A stretch of 64,000 bases of DNA, from the NCBI GenBank assembly GCA_011033025.1, contig WFMF01000031.1, positions 620,001 to 684,000 on the forward strand. The letters are read 5' to 3'. Source of the stretch: Beroe forskalii. Lineage: Eukaryota > Ctenophora > Nuda > Beroida > Beroidae. The position numbers and the translations under genes are program-made. Each line of letters begins with the position of its first letter. The stretch's first letter is position 1. The notes below the pieces were generated by a model. It ran no database searches and was not told where the DNA came from. It was given only the letters and a program-made list of their open reading frames with translations. Below, piece by piece: positions 6,843-39,548 of this stretch.

Positions 6843-9800
6843 TCAGAGCAAGCCACCCGCCTGGTAGAGACTGTTAGAGTAGATGATGTGGCTTGCTGGT
6901 GGCTCCTCTAGGACTATGGCGAACAAGCCGTCAGGGGTGTCACCCTGGTCGGATTGGGGAGTGTCTGAGAGGGAGTGTCCTGGATCTGCGAACCTGCCCA
7001 TCCCACACACGCACACAAACCCCCCTGCTCGGTAGTCAGGGTTATACCTGTCACTCCTGTTCTCAGAGGGTATCCTCAGCCCCTGACTCAGGGTGAGGGT
7101 CCGGGGGCGAGTCAGTCTAGGGGATCTGAGGTTCCCTGAGGATCTGACGCTGGCATGGGATCTGACACTGCCAGGGGATGTGAGGGTGGAGGAGGCGTTG
7201 GAGGAGGAGGGGTCAGGGCTGCTGGGGTGGGAGACAGTCCCTAACAAGTTATCCTGGGGGTGGTAGGGGTGGATACTCAACACATCCCCAACACAAGGTC
7301 TAATGTGGGAGAGCAGGGTGTGTTGCTGGTGAGTTGAGAAGAGAAACACTGCTCCGAAGTTAGTTCCCACCCACAACACATCTCTAGTAGCAGCAATACA
7401 GAGACACTGCAACCCACTACAATCCAGCGAGGCTTGTAAAGTGGTGAGGTCTATGCCATGCTTGCTAGGAGCCCCCCTCTTCAGATCAAACACTTGGATG
7501 AAGGAGGTCCCCACAGCCGCACTGAACACCTTGTGTCGTGATATCACTGCCATGATGTCCTTATCCAGGTCCGATGTGAAGGTGTATTGAGCCACTGACT
7601 TGAAGTCTGACGTGACCACCAGAATATCGTTACGAGTCAACACCACCAGGTCGATTACAGGCAGTTCCTCTGTTCTGGTCAGGTTCAGGAGTTTGTTGGT
7701 TATGGTGGTCTGCTCTCCACTAGGCACTGGTTTGCGAGTCCTGTACTCCAGGATTCTCACTACATCCTCATTAATTACAGGAAGTTTAAACTGAGTGGTG
7801 GTTTCCTTCAACCCACTCACCATGGCACGTGTGATGTAACCATGACAATGTCCTACAAAGAAGAAAGTGTCCGTTCCTAGGATACAGGTTTGCACGTGTT
7901 GGTGCTGGTTCCCGTAGCTCAGAGAGTCTGATATGGTCTCCAGATCAGGGGCATCCCACTCATCATTAGCATACCTAAAGAGGATGGTCTCCAGGTTAGA
8001 AGCCACCAGGATCAGCATCCTGTCTCTGTACTGTGCGATGTCCTTGATGACAGAGTTGCCTCTCTCCAAGTCCGCGTCATTCAACATAGCCACATCCAGT
8101 GAACTGCCCCCCATCAGCATGACTTTACAAGCCCTCCCCTCAGAACACCCTATCCACAGAGTCTGGGTGTGGGAGCTGAAAGCCGCGCATGTTGCACGTG
8201 CCACTATGGCATTAGGTGGCATCGTGTGCCCCATGAACATCTGGTACCCAATATGGCACAGCATCTTCCCCACGTGCTTCATCTTAGGTCTGAGCAGGGG
8301 GTCCTGGACCCAACACTCCTCCATCAGCTTCTTCAGGTTCCGCATCCCAAACCTCGTCATTCTGATGGACTTGTAGCCGTCAGGGCGGGTGTTGGCTATC
8401 ACATTCCTGTTGATATCGAATCTATGCAGGCCCGAGTAAGCCTTCTTCCTGCACATCCCCTCGTAGATTAGGAAGGAGTAGGAGTAGACATCCACTGCTT
8501 CAGTGTACTCCTCAGTCCCCTGATACACGAGCATCTCAGGAGCTTGGAAGCCAGGGGTCCCATGGAAACCCTTCACCCCTCCTCCACTCACTATCCCTGC
8601 TATTCCGTAGTCTGAGAGCTTGACATTGGGGGATTGGCACACGTCCAGGGAGAAGACTAGGATGTTGGAGGGTTTGATGTCTCTGTAGATTATCTTGTGT
8701 TTGTGGAGGTATGCCAGAGCGCAGGCTGTTTGGTGGAGGGTCTTGTAGAGGAAGAGACGGGGGAGAGGGGAGGGGGAGGAGAGCTGATGTTCCAAGTCAG
8801 AGTAGGGGGCGTACTCTATCACCAGACACTGACTAGGACGCAGGGAGACAGCCAGCATCTTCACTACACAGATGTTCTGCATCCTCTTCAACACGTTCAC
8901 TTCCCTCCTCAACTCCAGATAGGGAGCCTCAGGTTTCATGGGGAAGCTGTTGAAGGTCTTCACTGCGACTGTCTGCCCTCTGAACGTACCCTTGTAAACA
9001 CTCCCAAAGGCTCCTCCTCCAAGCCGTGACTCTGCAGTCTCAGTGAAGTGCACATCTGCTGAGTTCTCAATGTTCCCAGCGTCCAGATCGGACAGGAAGA
9101 TGTCTGGGATAAGGACATCCAGCTTCACAGGAGTCTCAGGGTGGTTGGGACAGGGGATCGCATCACTGTCTGCAATAATCTGCAGACAGTCGTCGTATGA
9201 GAAGGTGTGCACGTGGCACTCCGGGCACGGGATCTTCTGCGAGACCTGTAACGTGTCTGTGTTATGATAAGGGTAATTTGCAATTGGGTCTTTTCAATTC
9301 TTTTTCATGCCGTCATGGACTCAAAACGTTGGATAGAATAATTTACTGTTACTAATAAGTTTGTAATATATCAGTCCGGACAGAGGTTTTAAACCGCTTT
9401 GAGCCAATTTCCCAATTACCTGGTTCTCTGCGAACCCTGACGTAAGCCCCGGGTACCAGTCCTCCACGAGAGTGCTGATAGTGTCGATGATGTGGCAGAG
9501 CGCGCGGCGGCCCATGACGCCGCGCGACACGACGCAGACCACTCCCTCCTGCTCCTCCTCGGAGAGAGGCAGGATGAAGAGGTGGAGGTTGGGGTGGGAG
9601 AAGGAGAGGCCTCGTCTCCAGACCTTGAGGTGCTCCTCTTTGAGAAGGTCGTAACGAGCAGGGTTGTCATCCAGTGTCAGCTCTTCTGTAGAGTCGTTCA
9701 ACCCGTCCACGTCTTCAGGGAATGGAACTTGTTAAGGATAAATAATTCAGCTTTTCAATAATTCGAAATCAGACATGTGCCAATTTCAGTTCGAATATTT

Positions 9801-11510: not shown

Positions 11511-11527
11511 CTTGACAGATGAAAATG

Positions 11528-11735
11528 AAATGGTTACTAAGTGTTGTCATGGTCACTATGTTTTATCATGGTTACTATGTGTTTTCATGGTTGTACTATG
11601 TGCTGTCATGGTTACTATGTTTTATCATGGTTTCTATGTGTTGCCATGGTTATTATGTTTTGTCATGGTCACTATGAGTTGTCATGGTTACTATGCGTTG
11701 TCATTGTGTTGTCAATGCCATGGTTACAGTTAACT
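11528..11735. repeat. Minisatellite, GTTGTCATGGTTACTATG-type units
   Basis: About ten imperfect 18-20 bp units built on TGTCATGGTTACTATG. It begins about 20 bases upstream of the acceptor of the LRRK COR exon at 11510. Open frames across it have period-driven composition and are not coding. A similar GTTGTCATG core is used by the minisatellite at 14640-14930. Confidence 0.85.
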
Positions 11736-11739
11736 TCCA

Positions 11740-12913: not shown

Positions 12914-15090
12914 CTAACTCCCAGCCACACACTTATGTGGGGGGTTGTCCTGGGGGCACCCACTAGCCACCACCTGCAGAATCCACTCACAGCGATCCTC
13001 AGGACACGACACATCCTGAGTCAGCAGCTCAGCCTCCCTGCCGTACTTCAGAGCGCAGGAGACTCTAGCAGCCTGCTCTAACGCACACTCCTGCATCTGC
13101 GTGGGGGTGTGCCCCTCACACCTCAACTCTCCGCACCCCACACTCGCCCCTCCCCCACACACCGTCCAGTCCAGGTCAGTGTATCCAGGGAGATCAGAAG
13201 GGGGCTGACTCAGGGAACACTCTGGTAGAGACTCCTCACACGGCTTCTCAGATGTGTCCACCTCACACTTCCCTCCTGTCTTACCTACCTGCCAGTTAGG
13301 ACGGCGTCCTGATCTCGCGTCAAAACACAGCCCCACGTTACTACTCTTCTTCTTGAGAGGAGAGTAAGGATCCTCCACTTTAGGCTTCATGACGATATGT
13401 CCAGACATCACTCCGTCATACATGGCGGTGAAGAGAGGACACTCCACCTTTGAGGTGGAAGTTCTCAAACACCACGGAGCACTCAGAGTCCGCCACGTTC
13501 TGCTCCACCCCCTCTTCCAGGACCATCTTCACGCCGTGCTGATGCACAATCCACCCCCGCTCCACCTCAAACGCACCCCGTCCAAAGTAGAAGGTCATGT
13601 GGGAGAGCGCTGTCTTGCCGTTCATCTGGTCGAAGGTACCGTAGATAAACCAGGGGTTGGTGTAGTCGCCTCCAGGCCTGAAGTCAGCTGCCAGGACGTG
13701 AGTACAGGCCAGGTCGTAGTAGGTTCCCAGACCATTGAACCCTTCCACAGCTCCCCCTGGGTACATGGAGCAGGTGTGATGGAACTCAGGGACGTTGAAC
13801 TCCTTCTCGAACTCGTCCTCCTCTACATAGACCCTGTACTCGCTCACCACCTCTGTTTCTTCCTCCATACATTGCGTCACTTTGATCCTGTAGGTGCCCA
13901 CATTGTCCTCAGTCACTGTCATCTGATACGGGTCTGCAGGAGGGGAGATGAGCTCCACCGGACTGCCATCCTCGTGATAGAACTCCCATTTAACCTGGAC
14001 AGGAGGCGTCCCGGCGTCCACCACTCCAGAGGTAAGCACCACCGTCTCTCCGAAGTCATCCGAGATGATGTCCGTGTCCACAGGACGGATAACAGGCTCT
14101 ACCCGTCCCGGACACATGCCCTTGTTACCAATCCCTCTCTCCAACCCATCTTTACAGGTCTGCACGCCCATGTGACACTCGTTCATGAACTGCTCACACC
14201 TCGTGCTGCACAGCGGGTCGAACACGAAGGGGCACTCCTCCTCACACTTACACTCGTAAGTCCCTGCCTCGTAGTCTGCCACGCACTGCTGCCCCTCTCT
14301 GCAGTCCGCCTCCTCACACAAGTCCAGGATGATCACCTCACACTCATCACGTGACATGAGCGGGTCGTGGCCGTGCCCGTGGAACACGATGCACGTGTAG
14401 AGGCCGTCATCCACCCCTTTAGTCGCGTTCTCGTACTCGTTTATTGTGGTGGTTTTCTCCCCTTCCATCTCCGTGCGGGAAGCTGTATTCCTGGCTCGCC
14501 GCATCAGTTCCTCATTGCTGGGGATGGATTCCAGCTCCGCTGGGGTGTACATCTGAAAGATGGGAGGGTCAGAGGACTAGAGGAGGCTTATACCGGGGTC
14601 AGAGCGCGAAAAATTAAAGAGTTTCAGCAAATTAGAGAGAAAGAGTAAATGATATCAACACAATATGTTGCTATAACAACAGAACACATGTTGTGGTGAC
14701 AACACATGTCGTCATGACAACAAGACAACAAATGCTGTCATGACAACAAGATAACACAAATCGTCATGGAAACACATGTTGTCATGACAACAAGACAACA
14801 TATTATGTTGTCATGACAACATGACAACACATGTTGTCATGACAACAAGACAACACATGTTGTCATGGCAACACATATTGTCATGAGACAACACATATTG
14901 TCATGACAACATGACAGCACATGTTGTCATAGGTGTACATCCTGGTCAGGACTCCGTGATCAGTCCGGCAGGCGATCGTGTAGTCATCGCCAGGTTTCAC
15001 GTACTTCGTTCCACAAGTCCTAATGTTCCCGTAGTTTTCAGACAGAACCAAGGGAAGAAGGAGAATGAGGGAGAAGAGTAACCTCGACAT
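12914..15090 (-). CDS. Secreted multidomain protein with VWD-like domain, nested in LRRK intron
   Basis: Minus strand. Exon 1 (from 15090) starts MSRLLFSLILLLPLVLSENY, a clear signal peptide, followed by a short Ig- or lectin-like start with two cysteines. Exon 2 (14552 down to 12914) carries an Ig-like strand (GLYTCIVFHG), a Cys-rich segment (CKCEEECPFVFDPLCSTRC then CHMGVQTCKDG) of Kazal/EGF type, and a second Ig/PKD-like stretch. A region with VWD character follows (FNGLGTYYDLACTHVLAADF, WFIYGTF, NVGLCFDARSG), then a cysteine-rich C-terminus ending CVAGS. The frame breaks at about 13455: residues ENFHLK are in one frame and VECPLFTAMYDG in the next, repaired in principle by one A less in an AAA run. 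This may be a sequencing error or a true frameshift. The exon 1 donor is unclear; ATGTACACC occurs both at the end of exon 1 and at the start of exon 2. Function unknown; an extracellular matrix or mucus/defence role is inference only. Confidence 0.75.
14640..14930. repeat. Minisatellite filling an intron of the VWD-type gene
   Basis: About nine imperfect copies of a 25-30 bp unit around ACATGTTGTCATGACAAC, itself a near-palindrome. It occupies essentially the whole intron between the signal-peptide exon and the main exon. The intron borders carry a 9-bp direct repeat (ATGTACACC). Confidence 0.85.
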
Positions 15091-16028: not shown

Positions 16029-16905
16029 AGCTCCTTGTGTGGCATGTTAAGCAATGGAAGGGATGCAACGAGTGCTCTGACTACGTGGCTAAGTGGCATG
16101 TTGAGCAGGGGAAGGGATGCAATGCCTGCTTTAAAACTTAGTGGCTCTGTTTTCAACAAAGAAATTGATTCTTTGACGATAAAGAAATGCTAAGGAAAAA
16201 GTTAAGAAATAAATGTTAAGTGGTTTTGATGTAAAATTGTAGCAAACATAGTTTATTGTAGCAATAAAACGATGTTTGTAACAACATTATTTGTCCTATT
16301 TCTCATCAAACTAACCATTTTAGTGGCTGATTTAGGTCCTTAGGCCACGGATTTTGGAATGCAGGGAATGAGAAAAAGTAAAATTTCGAAACACGCAGAA
16401 TTGCCGAGCAAGGCGATAAATAATTGACCCAAGAATAATAAATACATTAGGGAAATGTAGGGTAAAGGGGTGCAGCTAATGCGTTCATCATTGGATTAAA
16501 AGCACCATCTCCGTTTAACTATAGGCAGTGTGGCGTCATCAACTCACCATGGCAACCAATGATGGTGAGGTCACAAATCACTGACAGATAGCTAAACTCC
16601 GGTCATCATTCGAATTTTGGTAACGAGGTTACCGGGTAATCGCATTGCCGCTGCGTTAAATACGGAAATCAACGCTCTAACCACCTTGGAGACAGCTTCT
16701 GCAGAAACTTGCACACAGAAACTATTGCAAGGTTTACGTGGTGCGATGGTGCAACGATGCTCCTAGTGGAAAGTTACGTCATTATTATAGACTTGAATGG
16801 GGAATTGATGGTGTTAACTGAATATTTCGTGCGAATCAGCATCGCAATGTTCAAGATCGATTGATTGGAAACCCCAAAGGGCCCTGAAACTTTATTAAAA
16901 CAATA

Positions 16906-17491
16906 CCTTAGTACCAGAAATATAGGCGACAAGAAATTAAGGCGATTTTGGAAAAATCGCCTTAATTTCTTGTCGCCTTAATATCTGGTCGTCTAAATAT
17001 ATGGTCGTCTTAATTTTTTAAAAAGACTTTATTTTCAGTTATTTTTCTCCTCAATCGACTTTTCCCAATATAGAACACAATAAATCCCTTGATAGCCAGT
17101 TATCAGTGCAATTAGCAGCAAAAACAAATTAAAATACCTATTCAAGTATTATTCTAGTGGAAATCTCATTATCATTCTAATCTTCATCTGATGTAAAGAT
17201 GCTGCCATGCCGGTATTGACTCTAGAATGTTGATTGACTCGTTTAAAAATCTCAGGATCTGATGTAGGTAGGTACTGTATTTTGAGGGCTCACTCAACAA
17301 GAAATTTTCTGTATTTTTGTTCAATTTTATAGTCATTTCATAGCCATTTCAAATTGAAAAAAAAATCATTTATTTTAATTATTTTTGGAAAAAAACTTCA
17401 ATTTGAACTCCAGGAAAAAATCGCCTTAATATCTTGTCGCCTTAATATCTTGCGCCTTAATTATTAGTCGCCTATATTTCTGGTACTAAGG
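16906..17491. mobile_element. MITE with TA target duplication, left arm only
   Basis: Termini CCTTAGTACCAGAAATATAG and its exact complement enclose 586 bp with internal inverted CGCCTTAAT/ATTAAGGCG words. The element is flanked by TA on both sides. The right arm at about 38540 has the uninterrupted site (AAACAATAATGATAAT in the left-arm orientation), so insertion and a TA duplication are demonstrated within this window. TA duplication is typical of Tc1/mariner relatives. No transposase is encoded. Confidence 0.92.
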
Positions 17492-19298
17492 TAATGATAA
17501 TGACGATCATCTTATTATTAAAGCAATAAAGTTTCAGGATCCTTCTTGATTGATTTACTGACAAGATAAACATGGTACAGATCAGCCCTCGTACAGACAG
17601 GAAAAGGGATAAAATTTCACTCTTTAGACACAGAAACTTTAGACAGATTAGAGGTCTGATTCTGTAATCTGTGACTGAGCCCTTCATCTGTGATGAGCTA
17701 ACTAACCGCACTATTCCATCCAAACATTCCAGATTATGGATGAATAGATGATTCAAGATGGAATCGCCTAATTGCGTCACCAACTGCGTCACCTATTACG
17801 TCAGAGGACCTCCATTGGCAACAACTTTGCTCAGACAGAACAATGGAAGGATTTACCTCCTCCGCCTCCCCCTGGATGAATATATAAATGCAATAAATAA
17901 ATCAACTAAACTTTCGCGACATATTTGCTGAATCAGGATAAAACCTTCACAGCCTGGCTAAACAAAATTTCCAGATCTGTGTATCTGTCTCCACTGCCCT
18001 AGGAATGAAAGCACAGAATGTCAGAATTTTCAGAGGGCCTGCTTTAAAACACGACAATCAGCAACATGATTGAGAGATGAGACCCTCGAGACCCTTGTGA
18101 GAATCAATCGATCCTGACACCACAGGAAGAAAACATAGACTGATGACAGAGTCACGAATAACGATAGAACGCAATAAGAATTGAATATTCACGATTAAAT
18201 ATGCAACGGATTTGATGTTATATTATTCAGCTCAAACCAAACGCTGGAAATGTCAGATAGAAGCACGCTTGCTCCAAGATTCGGGTAATAATCACCAAGT
18301 AAACAAAACACAGTACTAATTCATTTCACGAATGAAGTGAGCGGCAAAAATAGAACGAGCGGACGGAAATACTGTTTTCTAGTGCGTAAAACGGGGCAAA
18401 TGAGATTGTCAATTGCCTCCCCGGATAATATGTAGCCCACAGCTTGCATTCCAAATATCACAAATTAAATAAATAATATTTTGTATGATTCTCCAGTTAC
18501 TCTGTTGTGAAGGTCATAAGCTGAGATGACCGGAGCTCCACAGGGGTTTGCAAAAATAAGGTTAGCAGTATCAAGTGCACAATATGCAATGAGCTCATTA
18601 TGCACCTACTATGTACCTATAGTGTAGCAGGTAGCTATAGTGAACCTACGTAAAGACCTGATGTACAAAAGTACAGTTAGAGCGTCGAATGCCACCAGTA
18701 TGCCCCCATGATTTGCAGAAATATATGCAACCAAAATAAAGAATTACCCAGTATTTTCTTTCATTGATAACTTGTATGTTATTCATTCTTGTAAATGAAT
18801 ATTGAATGACTCATTGGTAGATTATGTTATTATTAATATTTACAAAACAGACGTCAGACGTGACCCATGTTTATGACAGACTGTTGAGTTATCAGTTTTA
18901 GTATTTAAATTTAAACTCATTAACAGTAAGCTCTTCCAAAGTTCACTGATAGTTCTGCAGCAAAAAACACATACTAATACCATAATACAGACGACCACAC
19001 ACAGCTCAAATCCATCCCATTATTGTTTGATAACTTAAAAATATTTCTAAAATTTACCACCACGGCACATAAATATCCGCGCGCGCATTCATTTCACGCA
19101 GGAATGGAACAACGGCCTCATTGCAAAAAATAGCCGCTGCGCGAACGCAATCACAATACATTCAGTCTGAGTCTGTCTGAATGAGTCTTGTGTCATACAG
19201 ATGTCAATTCTTATATCGCACTCGAACTTTTATCATGCTGCATCAAAAATTGGTGTTTAAAACTAAATAGTGAAGAATCCTAAAACCAAAATTCTAAC
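17492..19298. other. Intronic sequence shared between arms
   Basis: No exon in either arm here; alignable with about 36640-38530. Conserved between arms at a level typical of unconstrained sequence, with scattered substitutions and indels. Short open frames near 17472-17792 and at 38235-38588 are matched between the arms but have no coding features. Confidence 0.5.
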
Positions 19299-19456
19299 CT
19301 TAAATGAGAAATGATGCCAGTTGTGCATCCAGATAAATTTGCAGCAGCAAACTGGAACTCCGTGTCAATATCATCACACGCAGTGATACCCCGGATTATA
19401 CCCCATAGCTCCTCCTCCTGTACCACTGCTATACGGTGCTCCTTCTCATAGCGGAC

Positions 19457-20807: not shown

Positions 20808-21199
20808 CTTGAGTTTGTTGATGACTTCCATCAACTCGAAGTAACTGTTAGGAATGAGCTGTCCTAAGACCGCCTTTTTCTTATACTTCATGTTTTCTGC
20901 TTCCCTGAAAAACAGCAATCAGCAAATTTTGTCTCCTGAACTAGTTTCCTTCATCAAGATTTGAGTCGCGTAGGGGCATAGAAATTAAGGGAAATAAATC
21001 TTCACTTCCTTTGACATGTCAACTAGTGAAGTCTTCCAAACCTGACTATGGCCTCTGAAAGTTTCTCCACAGTTCTCCTCCACTCTGCATCCTGCTCACA
21101 GCTCACAGCAGTGATAACAGGAATGAGGACAGTGCTCTCGTTTCCAAACCCCCATCTGTGAATCCGATTATTCACCTCTTCCAACAATCTCCTGCACTC

Positions 21200-21860: not shown

Positions 21861-24800
21861 ATGACTCAACTCATGTTCTGACACTTTGTCTCCGGGTGGA
21901 TAAGTAAAATTAAACCAAAACTCTCAACTCATCCAACCCACTTTCTCCTGGTGGAAAATAAAATTAGTAATACTGGCTATACTATCACATACGTCGCAAT
22001 AGCAATGATATCCCGTCTAACTGCTACTGTCAACCTTTCCTTGACCCTAATATCACACAAACAAACAAACAGAAAATTTAACTAACCGTTCTGAAGAGAG
22101 AAGATGAGGAGATACAGCGTGGCAGGGGTGATGAAACACTGATGTGTTGCGTAGTACTCCTTCTGTCCACCAAAGTCCCACGTGTGGAAGGTAATAACCC
22201 TCCCACCCACCCCAAAGGGTTTCTTCATCGAATCACTCGCCATCACCTTGGTCTTGCTGATCTCTATACCTACAGTTGACACGTTCTTGCTGCTGACGTA
22301 GTCCTTCTGTAGTCGCCTGATGAGGGTGGTTTTACCCCTCGCCTCCCGCCCCACCACCACCAGCTTCATTTCGTAGAGAGGGCGGAGGGTGTAGAGCTTC
22401 TCTTTCAGATGTCCCAGGATACGGGAGGTTTTGGGGAGGTCTCCACAGAGGTGCTCAATGGGAGATACTCGGGATATCTCAAGGTGCTGGAGCTCTTCCA
22501 GCCGACCTGTAGGAGGGAGGGAGAAAGCACTAAGCAGGGAGAGACTTTTACAAAGTCGCATCTTATAAACGCAAATAAGAATTAGGAAATCCACTGAAAA
22601 TACTCAACGCGTTGTTGAGATAAAATTAATTTTCTATCAGTTAAGAGGGTCCCTTACCCAGTTCGTTTGGAACATCTGTAAACTTGCAGTCCTCTATTTC
22701 CAGATGCAGGAGACTCGTCATCGTACAAATACAACCTGAAAAAGAGATAGACCGTGAATTTTACGAAACTGTGAAGGTGAATATTGCAGAAGACGGTGTA
22801 ACGCTGGGAATGCCATAGAAAAACTCGGTGACAAAGAGAGTGACAACTTTTCGGCACCTGGGAATGTAGCAAAGAGGTTGTGCGACACTTTGAGGGTCTG
22901 GACGGCTGACTCTCTCATCTGATCAGGCAGGGAAGTGAGTTGGTTGCAGGACAGGTTGAGGGACTTGAGGGAGGGTGAGATGGCCAGGGTGGCTGGGAGG
23001 CGTTCTAAGGCGTTAGAGGAGGCGTTGAGAGAGGAGAGATAGGGCAGCTCGAACAGGGGCCGAGGGAGTTCTCTCAGGGCGTTGTTACTACACGAAAACT
23101 TGTGTAGGAACCTGGGGGAGGGAGAAGTCAAGAGACGCTTCAAAATGCGGCAGGATCTTGGTTCATGCAACGAAAGCTATAGGATTGGACGTTTGTCCAG
23201 TGTTGTTGTCAAATGCCCTGTATATCATAATTATGCGAAATTTTAAATTCGAGTTCGACCGAGATTGGGCTCATTACGGCTCACTACACCATTTAAGTCA
23301 ATAATATTCCAACCTGAGCTCTGCAATAGCCTCTGGAAGGAAAGGTCCGATCTGGTTGAAACCTATGTCCAGCTCCCTGAGGTGCTTGAGAGCCTCAGTC
23401 CGTGGCCACTTGTACGAGATGTAGGTGAGTCCTAGGCAGGTCCAGTCCACGATACGGTTAATGGGGTCGTGACGGGTCTCTAGCAGAGAGAATATGCAGT
23501 CCTCGGCTTCCTCGTCCGTGCCGTACATCTTATCTGAGAATATTAAGGGTGTGATAATCAATACAAGGGATATTAAGGGAATAGAATAGACGATATATTC
23601 TCTTATTTTTCTTTTTTAGAATAGCTTATCTGCAATTTTACAGTTATTATAGATGAATTCATTAAACTAAAATTTCTTCTTTTCTATTTTCTGATCATCA
23701 CCGTTTCTATTTTTCACCGTTTACATTTTCCACAGTTTCAATTTTCCATGTTATGTTTTTTCTGTGTTGATTCGGGACGAGTGAATTTGTGATATTTTTA
23801 TTATTATATTGTTATTACTATAAACTATCGATTTGTGGGCGGCAATCTTATTATAATTACCCTGATTTTGGCAATCAGATTCACATAATAGGTGGATTAG
23901 TGTTTCTGAGAAACGTTGGCGTCAATTCGGCGAAAATCGTATAGTGTAAACGTGTCAAGAAAACATTCCAGAAAACAGAAAACATTCTAGAAAACATTTT
24001 AGATAAAAAAAACCCGAGACATGAAATGGTCTATTCGCTGCAACTTTGTACTGTGTTTTATAGATTAAAATAAACGAGAATTGAAAAAGTTCAGCAAGAA
24101 CTGGGCATAGGTAAATGCATTTGGGTCGTTTCGTATTTCATTAAAAACCACAATGTGTGGATACTGTTCTAATAAAGATGCAATAAACCTGTCAAAACTT
24201 TATTGAATTTATCACTTTCTTCAGCAACCTATGGATCCAGAATATGGTCAAATATGGACAAATCAGGAATGACTTTCTTAATAAAATGTGCTGCACGACC
24301 ATGCTCCCGTACTTAACATTGGGGGTGGACTTTTCTCTATCCATTCCCCAGTAAGAAGAAGAAGAAGAAGTAGCTACCTCTACTTCTACCTATTGCACTC
24401 TTATCTTTTCCCTCATTTACAAGTCTGAGCGGGGGTCTCAGATCGAATGACGAGTGGAAGGAGAGCTGTGTGACGTCATCCCCTCGTTCCCCCTCGTCCA
24501 CATCTACTCCGCACTCCCTCATCACTCCCCCGGAGGTGGTCAGATTTCGCACTGCCTGGGAAGGGGTTAAGCAATAGTTGGTCATATTAAAACTGCAATA
24601 TTCGACCTGATATGAAATATCAACCTGATATAAAATATTAATCGGAATTAATAAAATAATGAGAAGATGGAAAAGATATTACCAATAATGAAAGCATATC
24701 AACACGTAACATTTAACAAATTGACAAATACACCCAAAGTTTAAAGTAGTACCTGAGTGTCCAGCATGAGACAGTGAGAACAGAGCATCAGGTAGGAGGC

Positions 24801-25377
24801 GGTGAGGGAGTGGCCGTTACGAGCCGCGCATGACATGTTGTCTGAGACCTGGCGAGCTCCAGACGCTATCAACACTTCGACTGCCTGGGGAGTAGAGAGG
24901 TGAGAGACCTGGCTGTATCAGCACTTCAACTGCCTGGGGGAATGGAGGGTTTTAGGAGTGATGGGAAGAATGGGAGGGTGAGGACATGGGGAGATGGAAT
25001 CATGACGGAGAGGGAAGGAGTGGGGGAAGGAGTATATTTCCACACCGTTGTGAACCGAAATATCACGAGCCGCAACTACGCCCTGCAACTACAAAGTGCA
25101 GGACACCAAGGTCTGCATGAGATCCATGCCCGTACCTGGCCAGCTGTTTTACATTCGCTGGAAAAGTAACAAACTTCAGAAAACAGTCATTCAATAACTC
25201 TTCCATTGGGGTCTAACCTTGATTTGGCCGTTGCAGGAGGCTTTGTTGAGACCTATTTCCAGCATAAAGTTTCCCTTATCTGGATCCTCTTTCAGCAGCT
25301 GTTTGATCTCCTCCACCATTCCTTTGGAACACGCGTAGAGGAACTCTGCGGAGATTCGTCATGATATCCACCCTAGA

Positions 25378-26201
25378 ACCCAACTAAAATAATGGCAGTC
25401 ACATGACGCTTGTATTGGTTGGTGTGACTGGGTGTGATACATGTATTGTCCTGCTAACATTACTACTGATACTCGTCACTCCTGTCCTAGTCACTGCATA
25501 CTAGTTACATTCGTATCATTCTTATTAGGTTCAGTCAACAGATGGAATCTCCCCGGTTTCGCACCATTGTAAATGTTCACTGAACATGATACGCACAGGG
25601 GAGTCTGGGTTAAAATAACCACTCAAATAAGCCTTTGAGTAGCAGTGAGTGAAATAGCAAGACCACCTATTTACATTTACAGATTTACATGCCCTGGTGA
25701 CAACCTTATATCCGCTCCACTTTGTTTACAAACCTCAGATAGTCGTGACGTTAGATTATGTAACTTGATCTGTGGAACTAACATAGTAAAGACACAATAA
25801 GAAAGGAAGTAAACATAAGAATCTTTCACACACAACCTGGAAGTATAAACATAAGAAGTAAACGTACCGTATCCGAAGAGCATGTCGATTATAGAAGAGG
25901 TTTTAGAGAAGAAGAGCTGTCTTACAACTGCCATCCGCGCAGTGTGGTTAGAGTTGTCTCGTAGGAAAGGGTCCGCATCATAATCTGTTAACTTCTGTAT
26001 GATGTCCAAGTGACCTGAAATCAGAAGACAGCACGTTACTATCTAACGGTCTATCATGCTAGCAATATTAAGATATTGCAGCTACAAAATCCGATAATCC
26101 GATAGATTCATGGAACATGTGAGTACTGAGTAGGGGGCCATCCATAAAGGACGTCCGCAATGAGGGGGAGGGGGAGTCTGGCCAATGCGGACGTATTAGA
26201 T
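25378..26201. other. Spacer of inverted duplication
   Basis: Unique sequence between the arms. It holds the minus-strand ankyrin exon 26014-25868. Both arm boundaries fall just upstream of the acceptor of the next ankyrin exon (25345 and 26234). No inverted-repeat ends or target duplications mark the turn-around point. Confidence 0.7.
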
Positions 26202-26233
26202 TCCAGGGTGGATATCATGTCAAATCTCCGCAG

Positions 26234-29200
26234 AGTTCCTGTACGCGTGTTCCAAAGGAATGGTGGAGGAGATTAAACAATTGCTAAAAGAGGATCCAGA
26301 CAAGGGAAACTTTATGCTGGAAATAGGTCTCAACAAAGCTTCCTGTAACGGCCAAATCAAGGTTAGACCCAATGGAAGATTAGAGTTATCATTGGTTTGG
26401 TCCGTGCATGGATCTCACGCGTACCTTGGTGCCCTAGCCTTTGTAGTTGTGCTGCCTGTTCGCAACGGTATGCAAATTCACTTCCCCATTCTTCTCATCA
26501 GTCCTTCAAACCCTCCCCATTCTTCCAACCACTCACTCCTAAAACCCTCTCTAGGCAGTTGATAGCATCAGCACCTCACCAAGTATCTCACCCTTCACTC
26601 TACTCCGCAGGCAGTCGAAGTGTTGATAGCGTCTGGAGCTCGCCAGGTCTCAGACAACATGTCATGCGCGGCTCGTAACGGCCACTCCCTCACCGCCTCC
26701 TACCTGATGCTCTGTTCTCACTGTCTCATGCTGGACACTCAGGTAGTTATTTCACTATGGGTGTGTTTGTCATTTTGTTAAATGTTACGTGTTGGTATCC
26801 TTTTATTATAATATATTTTCTTGATGTGATTAATTTTGATTTTACACATTAATATTTTATATCAGGTCGGACATTGAAGTTGTAATATAACCAACTATTG
26901 CTTAAAGGGGTTCTCTGGTATAGAATTGACTTTATATGAAATTGAAATCATTATGATTTTATCATATCTCACCTTACACGTAATAAAATGTTGAAATCCC
27001 CATCCCTCTATCTTTATTATTTCGCGAGTTATTGCGGTTTAAAATTTAGCGCGATGACGTCACTCCAGCACCAACATGTTGTCGCGCAGTGTTATATTAC
27101 AGGTGAAACAGCTTATTGTACTATTGTAGTGGGAAATAGGTGTGAAATCTGGTGAAATTGTTAAGCTTTTAGCATGCTTATATAGTATTTCATCCTAGTT
27201 CATGGACGGAATTTACTACTTTTCACCTTAGGTTTGGATGATTTTCCAAATTATACATTTTGAAGCGGTTTAATTCATCATGATTGACTAAATATGATAA
27301 TTGATACTATTACTACGTACAAATCATAATGCATATTCACAGTAATATTAACATAGGTATAGTAACGCACTTCTACATGGACAATGAACAGTGAAAAGAT
27401 ATCAGAGTAAACCAAATGTCTTATGAACTGTTGCTGGAATCCAGATTCCGGACTGATGTTAGAGGGAACTGTTGTCAGAGTTTACACTCTTGTTTGAATG
27501 GTTGTTGGAATCCAGACTGGTGTCAAAATGAACTTTTTGTCATTTGAGTGAACACTGATCGCTTGTTGGAATCCGGACTTGAGTCAGAGTGAACTGTTGT
27601 CAAAGCAACTGAGTGAACACTGAAGGTTGTTGGAATCCAGACTGGTGTCAGGGTGAATTAGTGTCAGAGCCACTCTCGCACTTATTCACTCTGGCACCAA
27701 TGGAAGCTAACACTGAACTGATGTTGGAATCAGGAATGGTGTCAGAGTGATCAGTGAATTGGTGTCCGAGTGATCACTGAGCTGTTGTTTGAATCCGGAC
27801 TAGTGTCAGATTGAATTGATGTTAGAGTAGACTGGCGTAAGTCATAAAACAACGCAAACTCGGCCTCGGCTACGAACTTGAACTCGGTCGTTTACTGTTG
27901 TTAGAGTGAACTGGTGTTAGAAGAAACAATGAACCTACTTCGGAATCGGCTAGAATGGGAATTAATATAGATTCAGAGTGAACATGTACTATAGTCGGTA
28001 AGATAAGACCGGAGTGGACTTGTGTCAGAGTATAAAACTTGTTTAAACCGGGACTATTTTCATGAATTCATGAGCCAGAGTGTTCGGTGTTAGAGAGGAC
28101 AGGTCCTACATTGCACTCTTTTCAGAACTGAAACTTGTCAAAACTTGTTAAAAAGTGAATTTTAGTCGGACTGAACAGTTGTCAAAATATAATTGAACTG
28201 GTCGACCGGTATTACGGTAAGAAGGAACTTAGAGTAAATCGCTACTGAAGAGTGACGAGTTTTACTTTCAGAATGAACTGAAGTCAGATCAAATAAGGGG
28301 GTGAGTGAAGGTATCTCTTTGTTCTGATGCCTTAAAGTACTGATTTCACAATGAAAACTGTCAGAATTTACTGCAGGCAAGATGGGCTCATTTCCCATCC
28401 TATTGTCCCAAAATGAATGCATAAATAGTTGAGTGTATCAATTAACTAACATATCTAATCAGCAAAAAATCATTTAAAAAGAAAATAAGAAAACTAAGAG
28501 TGAAGCAAACAATAAAAGTAATGTGGGAAATACCAATTTCATCACGTATTTTAATAGCGCGCATAGCAGTCAGTTGCGGTCTGGTGCAGTAGTGACGTCA
28601 TCGCGCCGTAACATAAAGGTGCGATATCTCGCGATAGGAGGCACCTAGAAACATGGGAATTTCACCATGATTATTGTTACAGAAATAATTAATAAATTGG
28701 ATCATGAAAAATAGCACTTTTTCTGGAGCAGAGAACCCCTTTAATTCCTGTGTAACCCCTTCCCAGGCAGTTAAATTCCTGTTTAATTCTTTTTTAACCC
28801 CTTCCCAGGCAGTGCGAAATCTGACCACCTCCGGGGGAGTGATGAGGGAGTGTGGAGTGGATGTGGACGAGGGGGAACGAGGGGATGACGTCACACAGCT
28901 CTCCTTCCACTCGTCCTTCGATCTGAGACCCCCTCTACGACTTGTAAATGAGGGAAAAGGTGAGAGTGCAATAGGTAGAAGTACAGGTAGCTACTTCTTC
29001 TTCTTCTTACTGGGGAATGGTTGGGGAAAAGTCCACCCCCAATGTTCAGTACGGGAGCATGATCGTGCAGCACATTTTCATTATGAAAGTCATTCCTGAT
29101 TTGACCCTATTTGACCATATTCTGGATCCATAGGTTGCTGAAGAAAGTGATAAATTCAATTAAGTTTTGACAGGTTTATTGCATCTTTATTAAAACAGTA

Positions 29201-32200
29201 TTCACAAATTGTGGTTTTTAATGAAATACGAAACGACCCAAATGCATTTACCTATGCCCAGTTCTTGCTGAACTGTTTTAATTCTTGTTTATTTTATTCT
29301 ATAAACACAGTACTAAGTTGCAGCGAATAGACAATTTCATGTCTCGGAGGTTTTTTTTTTTAGTAATTTTATATCTGAAATGTTTTCTAGAATGTTTTCT
29401 GGAATGTTTCTTGACACGTTTGCACTATACGATTTTCGCCGAATCGACCGCTAACTTTTCTCAGAAACACTAATCCACCTATTATCTGAATCTAATTGCC
29501 AAAAGCAGGGTAATTTTAATAGGATTGCCGCCCACAAATCGATAGTTTATTGCAATAACAAGAAAAATTCACTCGTCCCGAATCAACACAGAAAGAAATA
29601 GAATGGAAAATCGAAACTGTGGAAAATGGAAACGGTGTAAAATAGAAACGTTGATAATCAAGACATAGAAAAGAAGAAATTGTAGTCTAATGAATTCATC
29701 GAGAATAACTGTAATATTGCAGATAAGCTATTATAAAAAATCAAAGGAAGGGAATATATCGTCTATTCTATTCCCTTAATATTCCCTTTATTGTTCATTA
29801 CTACTCTAGTAGCCAGCTGCAGATGTGTATGCATTTCATTGCCCAGAATTTTTGACTGTTCCAGGTCGTTCTTCAGGCAATTCTGGACCAGAATCATCTA
29901 GGTACATAAAATGTATCGCTATTCACATGCCTGTGGGGCCACGCCCATGCCATGCCCTTATCGCGTATGGTAAAATTCATATCTCGGCCCAGGAAGGTCG
30001 TAGAGACTTCGTTTTTTAGCTCAAACAAACCGCAATGGCCATGTTTATATTCGACTTGTTAATAAACATGCCATAAAATACTCAGAAAAAAGTTATGGAC
30101 GAAAAACTGATTTTTGGACCATCGCGAGCCATGTATTTGATGATTTTTGTATCTCGGCCCAAGATGGTCACTTTACAGACTTTGTTTTCAGCTCAATAGA
30201 ACCACAATGGCCACGTTTATATACAATTTGTCAATCGAAATATGCTCAAAAGTTCCCAGAAATACAGAAATGGGCGAAAACTGGTATTCTAACCATGTGT
30301 GGGACGAAGGATTTTTGTATGGATGTACCCGCTCAAAATTAGCTAAAGATTATATGCGAATACTTTGAATCATGTTTTTGTGCATGCAATCAAAGCCCAT
30401 TCTGCTAATGCTCCACAGTGTAACAATGTAAATTGCACAATCTTCCTTGATGATTTGTATATTTTCATCTATATACATATGGAAGTGCTGAAATATGATT
30501 AGCAATCAACCGTGACCCAAAAGTTGGTAGGAAAACAGTGAAATGCAAAAAATAGAATAAACTAAAAGACATAAATATTACCACACCCCTAAGTGAGCCT
30601 ACCACACTCCTATGTAAGCCTATCACACCCCTAAGTAAGCCTATCACACCCCTAAGTAAGCCTATAGCACCCCAAAGTAAGCCTATCACACCCCTATTAA
30701 GGCTACCACACTTCTAGGTAAGCCTATCACACTCCTAAGTAAGCCTATCACACTCCTAAGTAAGCCTATCACACTCCTAAGTAAGCCTATCACACTCCTA
30801 AGTTAGCCTATCACACCCCTAAGTTAGCCTATCGCACCCCTAAGTAAGCCTATCACACCCCTAAGTAAGCCTATCACACACCTAAATAAGCGTATCATAC
30901 CCCTAAGACAGCCTATCACACTCCTAAGTAAGCCTATCACACTCCTAACTAAGCCTATCACACTCCCAAGTAAGCCTATCACACCCCTAAGTAAGAATTT
31001 CACACTTTTAAGTAAGCCTATCACACCCATAAGTAAGCCAATCACATCCCTAAGTAAGCCTTTCACATCTCTAAGTAAGCCTATCACACCCCTATTAAGT
31101 AAGACTATCACACTCCAAAGTAAGCCTATCACACCCCTAAGTTAGCCTTTCACACTCCTAAGTAAGCCTATCACACTCCTAAGTAAGCCTATCACAACCC
31201 TAAGCAAGCCTGTCACACCCCTAAGTTAGCCTTTCACACTCCTAAGTAAGCCTGTCACACCCCTAACTAAGCCTATCACTCTCCTAAGTAAGTCTATCAC
31301 ACTCCTAAGTTAGCCTATCACACCCTAAGTAAGTCTATCACACCCCTAAGTAAGCCTATCACAACCCTAAGTAAGCCTATCACACCCCTAACTAAGCCTA
31401 TCACTCTCCTAAGTAAGTCTATCACACTCCTAAGTTAGCCTATCACACCCTAAGTAAGCCTATCACACCCATAAGTAAGCCTATCATACCCCTATGTTAG
31501 CCTATCACACCCCTAACTAAGCCTATCAATCTTCTAAGTAAGTCTATCACACCCTAAGTAAGCCTACCACACCCCTTAGTAACTAAGTAATTCTATCATA
31601 CCCCTAAGTTAGCCTATCACACTCCCAAGTAAGCCTATCACACCCCTAAGTAAGAATTTCACACTTTTAAGTAAGCCTATCACACCCCAAAGTAAGCCAA
31701 TCACATCCCTAAGTAAGCCTTTCACATCTCTAAGTAAGCCTATCACACCCCTATTAAGTAAGACTATCACACTCCAAAGTAAGCCTATCACACCCCTAAG
31801 TTAGCCTTTCACACTCCTTAGTAAGCCTATCACACTCCTAAGTTAGCCTATCACACCCCTAAGTAAGCCTATCACAACCCTAAGCAAGCCTGTCACACCC
31901 CTAAGTAAGCCTATCACTCTCCTAAGTAAGTCTATCACACTCCTAAGTTAGCCTATCACACCCTAAGTAAGCCTATCACACTCCTAAGTAAGCCTATCAC
32001 ACTCCTAAGTAAGCCTATCACACCCCTAGGTAAGCATATCACACTTCTAAGTAAGCCAATCACACCTCTAAGTTAGCCTATCACACCCCTAAGTAGGCCT
32101 ATCACACTCCTCAGTTACCCTCTTAACCTGAAATTTATGGTCAATCCTAAGGTAAAGCATGGGGAATCCCTTAAAAATAAGTGGTTTTGCTGAGGGATCC

Positions 32201-35200
32201 CCTCTATTTTTAAGGGTTTCCTTTTCTATTATTAAGGATTCCCTCATTTTTAAAGCAATTCCCCCAAAAACACACTATGTTTTACTACATGTCTTCTTGA
32301 CGATCTACTTCGGTACTGCAAGCATATTTCCGATCTCGAGATGGCTTGTTCACACAAGCATTGATGCCTTGGTGCCAAGAAACCATAATTTTGAGTTCAA
32401 ACACTAAATTCTCCAGGAGTTGCCACCAGTTTCAAGGGAAAAGGTCATTTTTCAAGGAAAATCATTAACTTCTGCATACGGGTCATTAACTTTTAACTGC
32501 CCAGATATTCTCGATTTTGTTCCTAGAAGCTTTCAATCTCATCTTATGTAAGACCAACTTTGACCATCATACTGACTAGAGTCACCAAATTTGAAAGTGG
32601 AATATGACTAGTCTGTCTTGATCCTTTTCACTTGATTGACGTTTGGTCAGTCTATGGTGGTATTTTCTTCTTTCGTGAGTCAAGATCAACCATTAATAAA
32701 ACTGAATATGTATCAAAATGTATAACTGAAATTTTTCACTGAGTGTACTGACGAATTGCTGATTATGGAAGCCATGTAGAAATTAAGTTCTTTTGAACTA
32801 TTAAAATAACTAGTAACAAAGTTGAATTATTTCAATATTATCAGTTCTACAGATTTCAGATGAAAAATCTATTGAAGTCCCCAACTGTTTCTAGCATCAA
32901 AACAGGTCAGTTTTGAAATTTTTGAATCTGTCAGAAATACCAACCTAAAAACGTGTCCTTGTGGTAATTCAAATTAGATATATCCTTTGATACATGTCCC
33001 ACGCATGGATGAAATACCAGTTTTGGCCCATTTCTGTACATCTGGGAACTTTTGAGCATATTTCGATTGACAAATTGTATATAAACGTGGCCATTGTGGT
33101 TCTATTGAGCTGAAAACAAAGTCTGTGCGACCATCTTGGGCCGAGATACAAAAATCATCAAATACATGGCTCGCGTATGGTCCAAAAATCAGTTTTTCGT
33201 CCATAACTTTTTTCTGAGCATTTTATGGCATCTGTTTATTAACAAGTCGAATATAAACATGGCCATTGCGGTTTGTTTGAGCTAAAAACGAAGTCTCTAC
33301 GACCTTCCTGGGCCGAGATATGAATTTTACTCATACACGCATAAGGGCGTGGCATGGGCGTGGCCCCACAGGCATGTGAATAGCGATACATTTTATGTAC
33401 CTAGATGATTCTGGTCCAGAATTGCCTGAAGAACAACCTGGAACGGTCAAAAATTCTGGGCAATGAAATGCATACACATCTGCAGCTGGCTACTCTAGTA
33501 TACATTCCCAATAAATCTCAGATAAGATGTACGGCACGGACGAGGAAGCCGAGGACTGCATATTCTCTCTGCTAGAGACCCGTCACGACCCCATTAACCG
33601 TATCGTGGACTGGACCTGCCTAGGACTCACTTACATCTCGTACAAGTGGCCGCGGACGGAGGCTCTTAAGCACCTCAGGGAGCTGGACATCGGGTTTAAC
33701 CAGATCGGTCCTTTCCTTCCGGAGGCTATTGCAGAGCTCAGGTGGGTATTATTTAGTTAAATGCTGACTTCAGACCTTTTCATCCTTCACTCTCAGCTGT
33801 CGACGATAATCACATGATTTTCCAAAGCCTCTCATGATAACTCTCTCGTATCAGTTATCAACCTCTTGGTTTGACTTCCCCCTCCCCTAGGTTCCTGCAC
33901 AAGTTCTCGTGCAGTAACAACGCCCTAAGAGAACTCCCTCGGCCCCTGTTCGAACTACCCTACCTCTCCTCCCTCAACGCCTCCTCTAACGCTCTAGAGC
34001 GCCTCCCAGCCACCCTGGCCATCTCACCCTCCCTCAAATCCCTCAACCTATCCTGCAACCAGCTCACTTCCCTGCCTGATCAGATGCGGGAGTCAGCCGT
34101 GCAGACCCTCAAAGTGTCTCACAACCTATTCGCTACCTTCCCAGGTGACGAAATCATGGAGTGATGCCAAGTATTTCGCTGGTTGATGTTACTTTAACTG
34201 ATGACAATCTACAACTTCATTCGCAGGCGATAGTCGGCTTGATGTACACCATTCAGAACGCATAAGATTGTTTCATTGGCTAAGGATTGTTTTGGGAAAA
34301 TTCTATCGTATGCAACATTAACCCAACGCAGTCCTCAATAATTCACGCTGTATCTGCTTCCCAGGTTGTATTTGTACGATGACAAGTCTACTTCACTTGG
34401 AGATTGAAGATTGCAAGTTTACAGATGTTCCAAACGAACTCGGTAAGGGACCCTTTTAACTGATATAAAATCAATTTTGTCTCAACAGCGCGTTTCGAAA
34501 ATTTTCAGCGGATGTATTGTTCAATTTTGTTGATTTCCTATATGCTCCTTTGTAAAATCTGACTCTAGTAAACGTTCCTCTAATAACCCTGCTTACCCCC
34601 GCCCTCCCACAGGTCGGTTGGAAGAGCTCCAACACCTCGAGATATCCCGGGTATCTCCCATCGAGCACCTCTGTGGGGACCTCCCCAAGACCTCCCGGAT
34701 CCTGGGACACCTCAAAGAGAAGCTCTACACCCTCCGACCCCTCTACGAGATGAAGCTGGTGGTAGTGGGGCGGGAGGCGAGGGGTAAAACCACTCTCATC
34801 AGGCGGCTACAGAAGGACTATGTGAGCAGCAAGAACGTGTCAACTGTGGGCATAGAGATAAGCAAGACCAAAGTGATGGCGAGTGATTCGATGAAGAAGC
34901 CCTTTGGGGTGGGAGGGAGGGTTATTACCTTCCACACGTGGGACTTTGGAGGACAAAAGGAGTACTACGCCACGCACCAGTGTTTTATTACTCCTGCCAC
35001 GCTCTACCTCCTCATCTTCTCTCTTCAAAACGGTTCGTTTGCGTAATATTAGGGCTCTGCTTATTTACTCCAAGGAAAGGTTGACAGTGGCAGTTAGACG
35101 GGATATCATTGCTCTTGCGACGTATGTGATAGTATAGCCAGGACAACTAATTTTCTTTTCCATCAGGAGAAAGTGGGTTGGATGAGCTGAGAGTTTGGTT

Positions 35201-36638
35201 GGGTAACATCTCAGCGAGGGCTGTAGGCAGCACTGTACTTATCATTGGGACCTACCTGGACAAAGTGTCTGAACAGGTAAAGATCATCTTAGTAAAAGGG
35301 CTTTTAACAAATTGTCACGAATTTTTGGCCGATTTCAACCCCCTCTTCACTCCAAAAAGTTGTATTTTAATTGCAATGGAGCGTAACCAGGAAATAATTT
35401 GAAAAACCCTCCCGCCCCTTGATGACAGCGGAATGTTATGGCATAAACCATCCGTAACGTGTGGTTAGTGTTATTTGGAATGGGCCAAGAGCTGCAACCA
35501 GACCGTTTTAATCTAATCAGATTGGTTTAAATGTTTGCAAATTCTGGAGCCCCGGTATTTAATAATCGAATAACTTTTATTTAATATCATTTGAATAAGA
35601 GTTACTAATATTAAATATTTCAATTAACTTGTTCTGCAAAATATTTGAAGCACACCAGTGACTTTAAGACTTTAGAAATTTATGGAGTAAATGGTTGATA
35701 AAACTTAACTCTCCTGGGAGCATGCCCCCTAGTTTTCAAAAGCCCCCCCCCCCTCCCTCCATATTAGAGGGGTCTAGGCCCCTACTAACTCAAAAACCAA
35801 TGTGACAGCCTCATTGTAATGCTCACCCCATGAGTCTGCACTCCGTGCACAGTGCACATCACTGATCATGTGACTAGTTTATTTCATTTAACTGATTCAT
35901 TTCATGTGACTTCGATTTGCAGGAGTGCAGGAGATTGCTGGAGGAGGTCAATAATCGGATACACAGATGGGGGTTTGGCAACGAGAGTACTGTCCTCATT
36001 CCTGTTATCACTGCTGTGAGCTGTGAACAGGATGCGGAGTGGAGGCGCACGGTGGAGAAACTTTCAGAGGCCATAGTCAGGTTTGGCCTTTGGGGTGCCA
36101 CCTTAGGAGGGTCGGTTCTGTAATGTCAACATGTCAAAGGTATATTTCTTTGCCCTTTTGTGAATCAAATCTCGATGAAGGAAAATGCGATAACTGCTGT
36201 TTTTCAGGGAAGCAGAAAACATGAAGTATAAGAAGAAAGCAGTCTTAGGACAACTCATTCCTAACAGTTACTTCGAGTTGATGGAAGTCATCAACAAACT
36301 CAAGGTAGTACGAACATCTGGCAATTTGTTCTTCTGGCACCCTCTCCTCTTTTCACTCCCCCTTCCCTTCCCTCACTCCCCATCTCCCTCTCTCCCACTT
36401 CCACTCCCACTCACTCCCCCTCCCTCCTCCCCTCCACTCCCTCCCCCTCCCTTCCACTCCCACTCACTCCCACTCCTAGGTCCGCTATGAGAAGGAGCAC
36501 CGTATAGCTGTAGTTCAGGAGGAGGAGCTATGGGGTATTATCCGGGGTATCACTGCATGTGATGATATTGACACGGAGTTCCAGTTTGCTGCTGCTACAG
36601 ACCTGATGCACAACCTCGGCATCATTCTCCATTTCAAG
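26234..36638 (+). CDS. LRRK-type Roco gene, 5' exons (ankyrin, LRR, ROC, COR), right-arm copy
   Basis: Eleven exons: 26234-26361, 26611-26742, 28809-28959, 33522-33741, 33891-34144, 34365-34442, 34613-35032, 35167-35276, 35923-36080, 36208-36304 and 36480-36638. They total 1,907 nt and all junctions are phase-compatible and open. Ankyrin-type repeats come first (EFLYACSKGMVEEIKQLL, GARQVSDNMSCAARNGHS). Leucine-rich repeats follow (LRELDIGFNQIGPFLPEAI, LPYLSSLNASSNALERLP). ROC GTPase has P-loop GREARGKTT, switch DFGGQKEYYATH and G4-like GTYLDK. COR starts at VRYEKEHRIAVV and ends HNLGIILHFK in phase 0. No exon corresponding to the rest of COR or the kinase follows on this strand, and the ankyrin exon preceding 26234 is absent, so this copy is truncated at both ends. 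It would join in frame to the 3' half at 11510, which lies on the opposite strand. Confidence 0.88.
26906..28740. mobile_element. Non-autonomous TTAA-inserting DNA transposon (Kolobok/piggyBac-like)
   Basis: Starts AGGGGTTCTCTGG and ends CAGAGAACCCCT, with TTAA on both sides (26902-26905 and 28741-28744). Subterminal inverted similarity extends about 170-200 bp, with GCGCGATGACGTCACT conserved near both ends. It lies in a LRRK intron of the right arm. The left arm has the unoccupied site CAACTATTGCTTAACCCC with one TTAA, so insertion is proven. TTAA duplication is shared by Kolobok and piggyBac. The TCCAGAA motif just inside the right terminus is also found just inside both termini of the autonomous Kolobok at 49281-53282, which favours Kolobok. 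The core, about 27420-28140, is a degenerate tandem array of TTGGAATCCAGACTGGTGTCA-like units with no coding capacity. Confidence 0.88.
28745..28808. repeat. Duplicated splice acceptor region upstream of LRRK exon
   Basis: AACCCCTTCCCAGGCAGT occurs twice (about 28756 and 28797) before the exon at 28809. Only one copy is present in the left arm. The upstream copy is followed by a frame that the true exon does not continue, so the downstream acceptor is the one that preserves the protein. Confidence 0.7.
29811..33491. mobile_element. Long-TIR DNA element with satellite core, right arm only
   Basis: About 500-bp terminal inverted repeats (29811 to about 30310; about 32990 to 33491) begin AGCCAGCTGCAGATGTG and enclose a tandem satellite. 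ACTCTAGT flanks both ends (29803-29810 and 33492-33499). Because the flank is partly palindromic, the target duplication could be called as 6, 8 or 10 bp. Each TIR contains two related units of about 150 bp with TATCTCGGCCCA and AATGGCCATGTTTATAT words. No transposase is present. The left arm lacks the insertion. A diverged relative of the TIR unit occurs at 62760-62890. Long TIRs with a satellite core suggest a foldback or Mutator-like non-autonomous element; the class is not certain. Confidence 0.85.
30575..32125. repeat. Satellite array, 21-bp unit CCTATCACACCCCTAAGTAAG
   Basis: About 75 imperfect copies of a 20-21 bp unit based on AAGCCTATCACACCCCT. Higher-order repetition is visible: a block at about 30948-31147 recurs at about 31617-31816. 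Because 21 is a multiple of three, the minus strand reads as repeating seven-residue GVIGLLR peptides. These frames are a by-product of the array, not genes. Confidence 0.95.
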
Positions 36639-39400: not shown

Positions 39401-39548
39401 GGAGCTTTTAGATTAGATTAGATTAGATTAAAATTATGACAGGAATCATCTCAGATACTTCATGCAAGGTTTTCAATAAAATCCAAAAATAAATCTGCTT
39501 CTTCAGCAGTCACCAGTTAGAAAATACTTCTTCTAAAAACTGCAAGCT

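Follow-up and report, generated by a model that had tools for sequence, protein, structure and literature searches.

A split LRRK-type gene in a Beroe forskalii contig is probably an assembly artifact

We analyzed a window of 64,000 nt from the ctenophore Beroe forskalii (assembly GCA_011033025.1, contig WFMF01000031.1, positions 620,001 to 684,000), in which a gene of the LRRK type is laid out in two opposing orientations. The front half of the gene (exons E1–E11) is present twice, head to head, as collinear inverted copies that we call the left arm (L, minus strand) and the right arm (R, plus strand); the rear half (E12–E18) is present once, on the minus strand. The split most likely belongs to the assembly rather than to the animal: the arms are probably diverged haplotypes of a single functional LRRK gene that were misjoined in head-to-head orientation.

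The initial annotation of this DNA had left a choice between an intact gene that exists in another arrangement or haplotype and a functional gene broken by a rearrangement. The first alternative is favored by 103 synonymous versus 0 amino-acid differences between the arms, by the failure to find a second 3′ half and by the transposable elements at the ends of the right arm. A real rearrangement is retained as a serious rival.

RESULTS

Exons on opposite strands read as one LRRK-type gene

The right arm was originally described as eleven plus-strand exons (26234–36638) in one open frame that ends in phase 0 at the residues LHFK, and our exon model bears this out, with AG acceptors and GT donors throughout. 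On the minus strand, six exons from 11510 to 6843 had been proposed to begin in phase 0 and to stay open to the stop. Both the phase and the open frame stand, beginning at EPSLQNQYFLDPCW, but the model contains seven exons rather than six (E12–E18), which encode the remainder of COR-A, COR, the kinase and a C-terminal propeller-like region. Right-arm E1–E11 and E12–E18 splice into a single open LRRK-type frame. The conceptual protein employed in searches has 1,877 residues and no internal stop, with an uncertain ankyrin-like stretch from the inter-arm spacer placed in front.

The join between the opposite-strand halves restores a continuous COR domain, as the initial annotation had proposed. 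The Pfam family COR-A (PF16095) matches R E10–E11 joined to E12–E13 over profile positions 1–143 with a score of 65.2 bits, compared to 13.5 bits for R E10–E11 alone (positions 1–58) and 40.4 bits for E12–E13 alone (61–143). Taken alone, the right arm breaks off at position 58 of the 143 in the COR-A profile. A ctenophore relative, P0122, is 43% identical over query residues 81–816, and its alignment crosses the E11|E12 join unbroken. The join also falls within query residues 244–827, the part matched by PDB chains named LRRK2. Because the whole COR-A profile, P0122 and the LRRK2 chains all span the join, the intact 5′ and intact 3′ exons are, on the sequence evidence, parts of one gene.

The remaining domains follow the order of known LRRK/ROCO kinases (LRRK2 and LRRK1 PDB chains; P0122), namely leucine-rich repeats, Roc, COR-A, kinase and a propeller-like region, with the difference that the halves here lie on opposite strands. 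Leucine-rich repeats precede Roc (LRR_8, 46.5 bits; LRR_4, 42.2 bits), the Roc GTPase domain matches its full profile (PF08477, positions 1–119, 73.6 bits) and a protein kinase domain lies C-terminal to COR (PF00069, Pkinase, 144 bits). The C-terminal propeller (PF23748, Beta-prop_LRRK2) scored 24 bits, under its cut-off of 26.9, and an N-terminal ankyrin region, an LRRK1-type feature, scored 20.2 bits (Ank_2), under its cut-off of 27.3. COR-B was matched only in P0122, at 22.6 bits (cut-off 27); the protein scanned here ended in E13.

We did not identify the first coding exon of either arm. Homology of the right arm begins 33 bases upstream of the E1 acceptor. The ankyrin-like stretch of the spacer was considered as a further LRRK exon and rejected: although it is in phase with E1, nothing in P0122 corresponds to it and its Ank_5 match (E = 0.11) is not significant.

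The arms have diverged without amino-acid change in nine exons

We compared the two arms codon by codon in E1–E7, E9 and E10, nine of the 11 shared exons, leaving out E8 and E11, which carry lesions, and all codons split by exon borders. We found 103 synonymous differences over ~374 synonymous sites (synonymous divergence, dS, of 0.34) and no amino-acid differences over ~1,246 non-synonymous sites, with no insertions or deletions (indels). One replacement step was counted in E9, leaving the residue unchanged. This combination argues that both copies, as read from their codons, are held under protein-level constraint. A count of zero needs a ratio of non-synonymous to synonymous divergence (omega) below about 0.007; if the left arm had been neutral over 2% of its branch, 4.3 changes would be expected and the probability of none is 0.014.

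The relaxed protein constraint expected of a decayed duplicate is thus not what these nine exons of the left arm display, and an old pseudogene is ruled out by the absence of amino-acid differences at a dS of 0.34. The coding differences (71 transitions and 33 transversions) have the look of natural divergence rather than of read error. In non-exonic sequence the corresponding counts are 185 and 252, raised by the poor alignment of introns. What most deserves attention at this locus is the synonymous-only divergence of the two arms.

Divergence is also a mosaic. None of 32 synonymous sites is changed in E2, compared to 10 of ~15 in E6 (heterogeneity among exons, p = 8e-5); 14 mismatches separate the outer 877 bases of the two arms (98% identity), and for several introns the alignment is poor or absent. 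Such a pattern could arise by recombination between haplotypes or by gene conversion between duplicates. A fold-back chimera of one molecule is excluded, as the arms differ by 0 to >20% per 100-base window and carry large private insertions. A 3.7 kb element with 0.5 kb inverted repeats is present in intron 3 of the right arm only. As a separate observation, E2 (24884–24753 and 26611–26742) is identical over 132 bases, its adjoining introns differ by 16–19%, and the tract of identity ends almost at the exon borders.

Lesions of the left arm are local

The left arm had been described as damaged, and two lesions, with perhaps a third at a splice site, confirm this. E8 is scrambled; the 3′ end of E11 (about 19340–19299) is altered with a net one-base shift, and E11 with its GT donor cannot be read in frame into E12; the E3 donor has changed from GTGAGA to ATAAGA, losing its GT. 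The arms differ by 7 amino acids in E8 and by 10 in E11. A left-arm product that uses the GT donor and is read to the first stop matched no Pfam family at E ≤ 1. The left arm is nevertheless not a long-decayed copy, since in the remaining nine exons its protein sequence is identical to that of the right arm. Given a downstream GT in the same phase that is readable at E3, we do not regard the donor change as fatal. The altered E3 donor (24404–24399) consists of the same six bases, ATAAGA, that open E4, as in spliced sequence, which is perhaps chance or perhaps correction with transcript reads.

We also calculated homopolymer content in 400-base windows. Between 19201 and 20400, upstream of and beside the damaged E11, homopolymer runs reach 2.6–5.5 times expectation. 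By comparison, 701 overlapping windows from other loci of the genome have a median of 1.22, a 99th percentile of 3.75 and a maximum of 4.58, and ratios of 2.9–3.75 also occur elsewhere in the window, for example at 3001–3600, 52601–53000 and 62401–62800. The excess suggests poor consensus near E11, and for the left-arm lesions as a whole an origin in raw-read error is suggestive only. Separately, the sequence at 53601–55800, beside a 100-N gap, has 2.6–6.0 times the expected homopolymers, like uncorrected read sequence.

Transposable elements lie at both ends of the right arm

The only runs of N in the window are at 879–978 and 53661–53760, and the palindrome therefore lies in gapless sequence; the spacer between its arms is not itself palindromic. 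At the inner end of the right arm, a truncated terminal piece of a dispersed miniature inverted-repeat transposable element (MITE) stops three bases before the arm homology starts. Five other copies of this MITE that we examined are about 300–390 bp long, with terminal inverted repeats of about 26–37 bp. At the outer end, the 3′ tail of a long interspersed nuclear element (LINE) comes within 8 bases of the arm (39414 versus 39406).

The one other copy of this LINE that was compared lies on the same contig at a distance of about 36 kb (L040:1522-5821) and shares 99.07% identity with it. The two copies differ over 4.3 kb by 25 substitutions and 11 indels. Eight of the indels fall in single-base runs, a hint of remaining indel error. 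Judged by this similarity, the LINE is far younger than the divergence of the arms (dS 0.34). An old duplication could by chance end at a young LINE, which is possible but unlikely; an abutting LINE is what would be expected of a haplotype with a young LINE insertion that was misjoined through the repeat.

A second 3′ half was not found

The whole genome assembly (216 Mb in 1,134 contigs) was searched for further copies. No second 3′ half was found by DNA (among the best 40 of 168 candidates) or by the protein of E17 (the single candidate scored), which is the result expected if the other haplotype was purged. The exon DNA of E4–E11 recovered only the two arms among the best 40 of 743 candidates, E1–E3 not having been searched separately; these searches and those of the 3′ half leave some room for further copies. 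With the Roc exon protein, and all nine candidates scored, the matches were the two arms and two weak ones. Outside the LRRK locus, matches to Roc or COR-A were all weak and fell on contigs C1, C277 and C436. The COR-A family search of the genome gave no match at the LRRK locus itself, because exon borders interrupt the domain there. Short repeats aside, the outer part of intron 11 was seen in no place but the two arms (38 of 38 candidates), and the spacer had no other long match among the best 40 of 657 candidates.

DISCUSSION

Misjoined haplotypes are the probable explanation

If the arms are haplotypes of one gene, they would be alleles, or copies from a second individual or a cryptic lineage in the sample. 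The assembler would have joined them in one contig at transposable-element sequence, at the MITE on the inner end and at the young LINE on the outer end, and the second 3′ half would be missing, probably because it was purged as a haplotig. An R-type E1–E11 would, in the animal itself, run directly into an E12–E18. The damage to left E8 and E11 would reflect either an error in the local consensus or a null allele of recent origin. We favor two versions of a single functional gene because both copies are held to the identical protein in nine exons; a partial copy that stops inside COR-A should, on its own, be unconstrained.

Reports on ctenophores provide a setting for such an error. Hormiphora is described as having 3.2% combined and 2% single-nucleotide heterozygosity, many indels in non-coding sequence and inversions in the heterozygous state, as well as genes nested in introns and trans-splicing of a leader (PMC8527503). 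In Mnemiopsis, 127 of 129 unplaced scaffolds were judged to be alternative haplotypes (PMC11797021); long-read assemblies of Beroe are given as nearly twice the short-read size (PMC11184263), and long-read gap closing and haplotig purging are mentioned for a Bolinopsis assembly (PMC10232365). The locus resembles known false haplotypic duplications in that a stretch that is otherwise single-copy contains two copies, equivalent in protein over nine of 11 exons but with damage to left E8 and E11, that have repeats at their ends, one of them without a continuation. It is unlike the usual case in its very high dS and in the inversion of the copies inside one gapless contig.

Several findings weigh against misjoined haplotypes. 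A dS of 0.34 is far above the 2% single-nucleotide heterozygosity of Hormiphora and would be extreme for alleles, which would then need to be of exceptional depth, to be introgressed, or to stem from a second individual or lineage in the sample. The omega that zero amino-acid changes needs is very low even for functional alleles. Neither junction has an N gap. Beyond the LINE, homology to the left side does not resume (local alignment score of 1331 versus a maximum of 1476 in 20 shuffles), a result qualified, like the missing homology in the spacer, by the frequent failure of introns of this locus to align. Allele-like copies of other regions were looked for and none were found. When small contigs were considered as haplotigs, a 6 kb piece taken from a single contig had no allele-like match among the best 40 of 1311 candidates. 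As for the lesions, the sequence at 19300–19345 has no homopolymer excess and no run of four or more, and left E8 has little excess.

A real duplication and other alternatives

The foremost rival is a real inverted partial duplication of E1–E11 that is old and patchily gene-converted, with a recently damaged left copy and a gene that is broken in the sequenced haplotype. We regard it as unlikely, though it must be taken seriously. It would explain why both junctions lack an N gap, and the collinear arms, with mosaic identity as from gene conversion and outer ends that are 98% identical, resemble those of a palindromic inverted duplication. A dS of 0.34 is ordinary for duplicates but would not be for alleles, and transposable-element sequence at the ends fits a true rearrangement too. 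However, protein-level constraint is complete in nine exons of both copies, even though R lacks a 3′ half and stops mid-COR-A, and unlike in a palindromic duplication, neither arm has relaxed constraint outside of two or three local lesions. It would, moreover, be a coincidence for an old copy to stop only 8 bases or less from a LINE that is much younger.

Alternatively, the segment from about 16.9 to 38.5 kb could be inverted with respect to the functional arrangement, by recombination or by a wrong assembly path between the nearly identical outer patches. When flipped, the intact right arm would run into E12. The 98% identity of the outer 877 bases is compatible with such an exchange, and heterozygous inversions are reported for a ctenophore (PMC8527503). 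We nevertheless consider it improbable: the left arm would then be an unconnected copy, yet it has no amino-acid change in nine exons.

The palindrome could also be real, with both synonymously diverged 5′ halves serving one 3′ half, either via trans-splicing, in a phylum rich in it, or via recurrent inversion between the nearly identical outer patches, by which the connected arm would alternate. If both arms were in use in this way, the lack of amino-acid changes in either would be explained. We give this combination little credence. It would matter if true, as two copies kept to the same protein around a single 3′ half would make trans-splicing or switching by inversion strikingly plausible.

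Trans-splicing taken by itself, in which separate transcripts of the R and L 5′ halves would both supply one shared 3′ half, seems very improbable. Loci of the mod(mdg4) type offer a parallel. In its favor, the protein encoded by the two 5′ halves is the same in nine exons, the search gave a single 3′ half, and the homology of the right arm starts just upstream of the E1 acceptor. A spliced leader is present on at least 56% of Hormiphora Iso-Seq reads (PMC8527503), but leader trans-splicing differs from gene-to-gene trans-splicing. There is no specific sign of it at E11 or E12, and left E11 with its GT donor is out of frame with E12.

Consequences of a misjoin

If haplotypes were misjoined here, gene models of this locus would wrongly report a split or pseudogenized ctenophore LRRK, and the same perhaps holds for P0122. 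Synonymous-only divergence between paired copies would then offer a cheap, read-free sign of assembly errors. The P0122 gene model (EukProt id sb/3460521/, a style that we take to be that of Pleurobrachia bachei) contains the LRRK 5′ part three times (residues about 15–236, 261–688 and 681–1110), followed by one 3′ half. Its three 5′ parts differ pairwise at 1, 3 and 4 positions, perhaps the outcome of a similar assembly problem. A literature search pairing LRRK with ctenophore returned no title on ctenophore LRRK, a result of that search and not a claim of wider absence in print.

OTHER FEATURES OF THE WINDOW

Table 1. Positions of the LRRK-type exons, the arms and neighboring elements in the window
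Feature	Position	Strand	Remarks
Left arm	16029-25378	minus	E1-E11 counterparts and a portion of intron 11
Right arm	26201-39406	plus	intact E1-E11 and 2.8 kb of intron 11
Inter-arm spacer	25379-26133		contains a possible ankyrin-like stretch, 26014-25868 (minus)
Right-arm E1-E6	26234-26361, 26611-26742, 28809-28959, 33522-33741, 33891-34144, 34365-34442	plus	intact
Right-arm E7-E11	34613-35032, 35167-35276, 35923-36080, 36208-36304, 36480-36638	plus	intact
3′ half E12-E15	11510-11317, 10986-10788, 10641-10599, 10462-10331	minus	from splice borders and open frame
3′ half E16-E18	10174-9872, 9727-9420, 9245-6843	minus	from splice borders and open frame
Left-arm E1-E6	25345-25218, 24884-24753, 24555-24405, 23533-23314, 23111-22858, 22735-22658	minus	
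Left-arm E7-E11	22506-22087, E8 from 21947, 21199-21042, 20904-20808, 19456-19299	minus	E8 damaged; E11 damaged at 3′ end
MITE terminal piece, truncated	26134-26197		64 bp; ends 3 bases before right-arm homology
LINE	39414-43710	minus	reverse transcriptase PF00078, 95.6 bits
3.7 kb element	29802-33500		terminal inverted repeats 29802-30305 / 33500-32996; tandem array 30579-32121 (1.5 kb)
Nested gene, ctenophore family	12929-15033	minus	inside left-arm LRRK intron 11

The gene nested in intron 11 is 48% identical to P0206 (Bolinopsis microptera LOC134826408), the sole named match among 15, and it has a one-base frame shift at an A run near 13448. Elsewhere in the genome it has one long relative at 66% identity and otherwise short matches, with no allele-like second copy among the best 40 of 456 candidates.

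A receptor gene at 59600–62100 has a low-density-lipoprotein-receptor class A match under the cut-off and a 7tm_1 match just above it; it belongs to a dispersed family, with long matches of 69–75% DNA identity on many contigs. A long open frame on the minus strand, at 49848–52193, encodes THAP and Mutator-like transposase domains. Finally, an inverted repeat at 47701–48227 has 238 bp arms that are 89% complementary and 51 bp apart.

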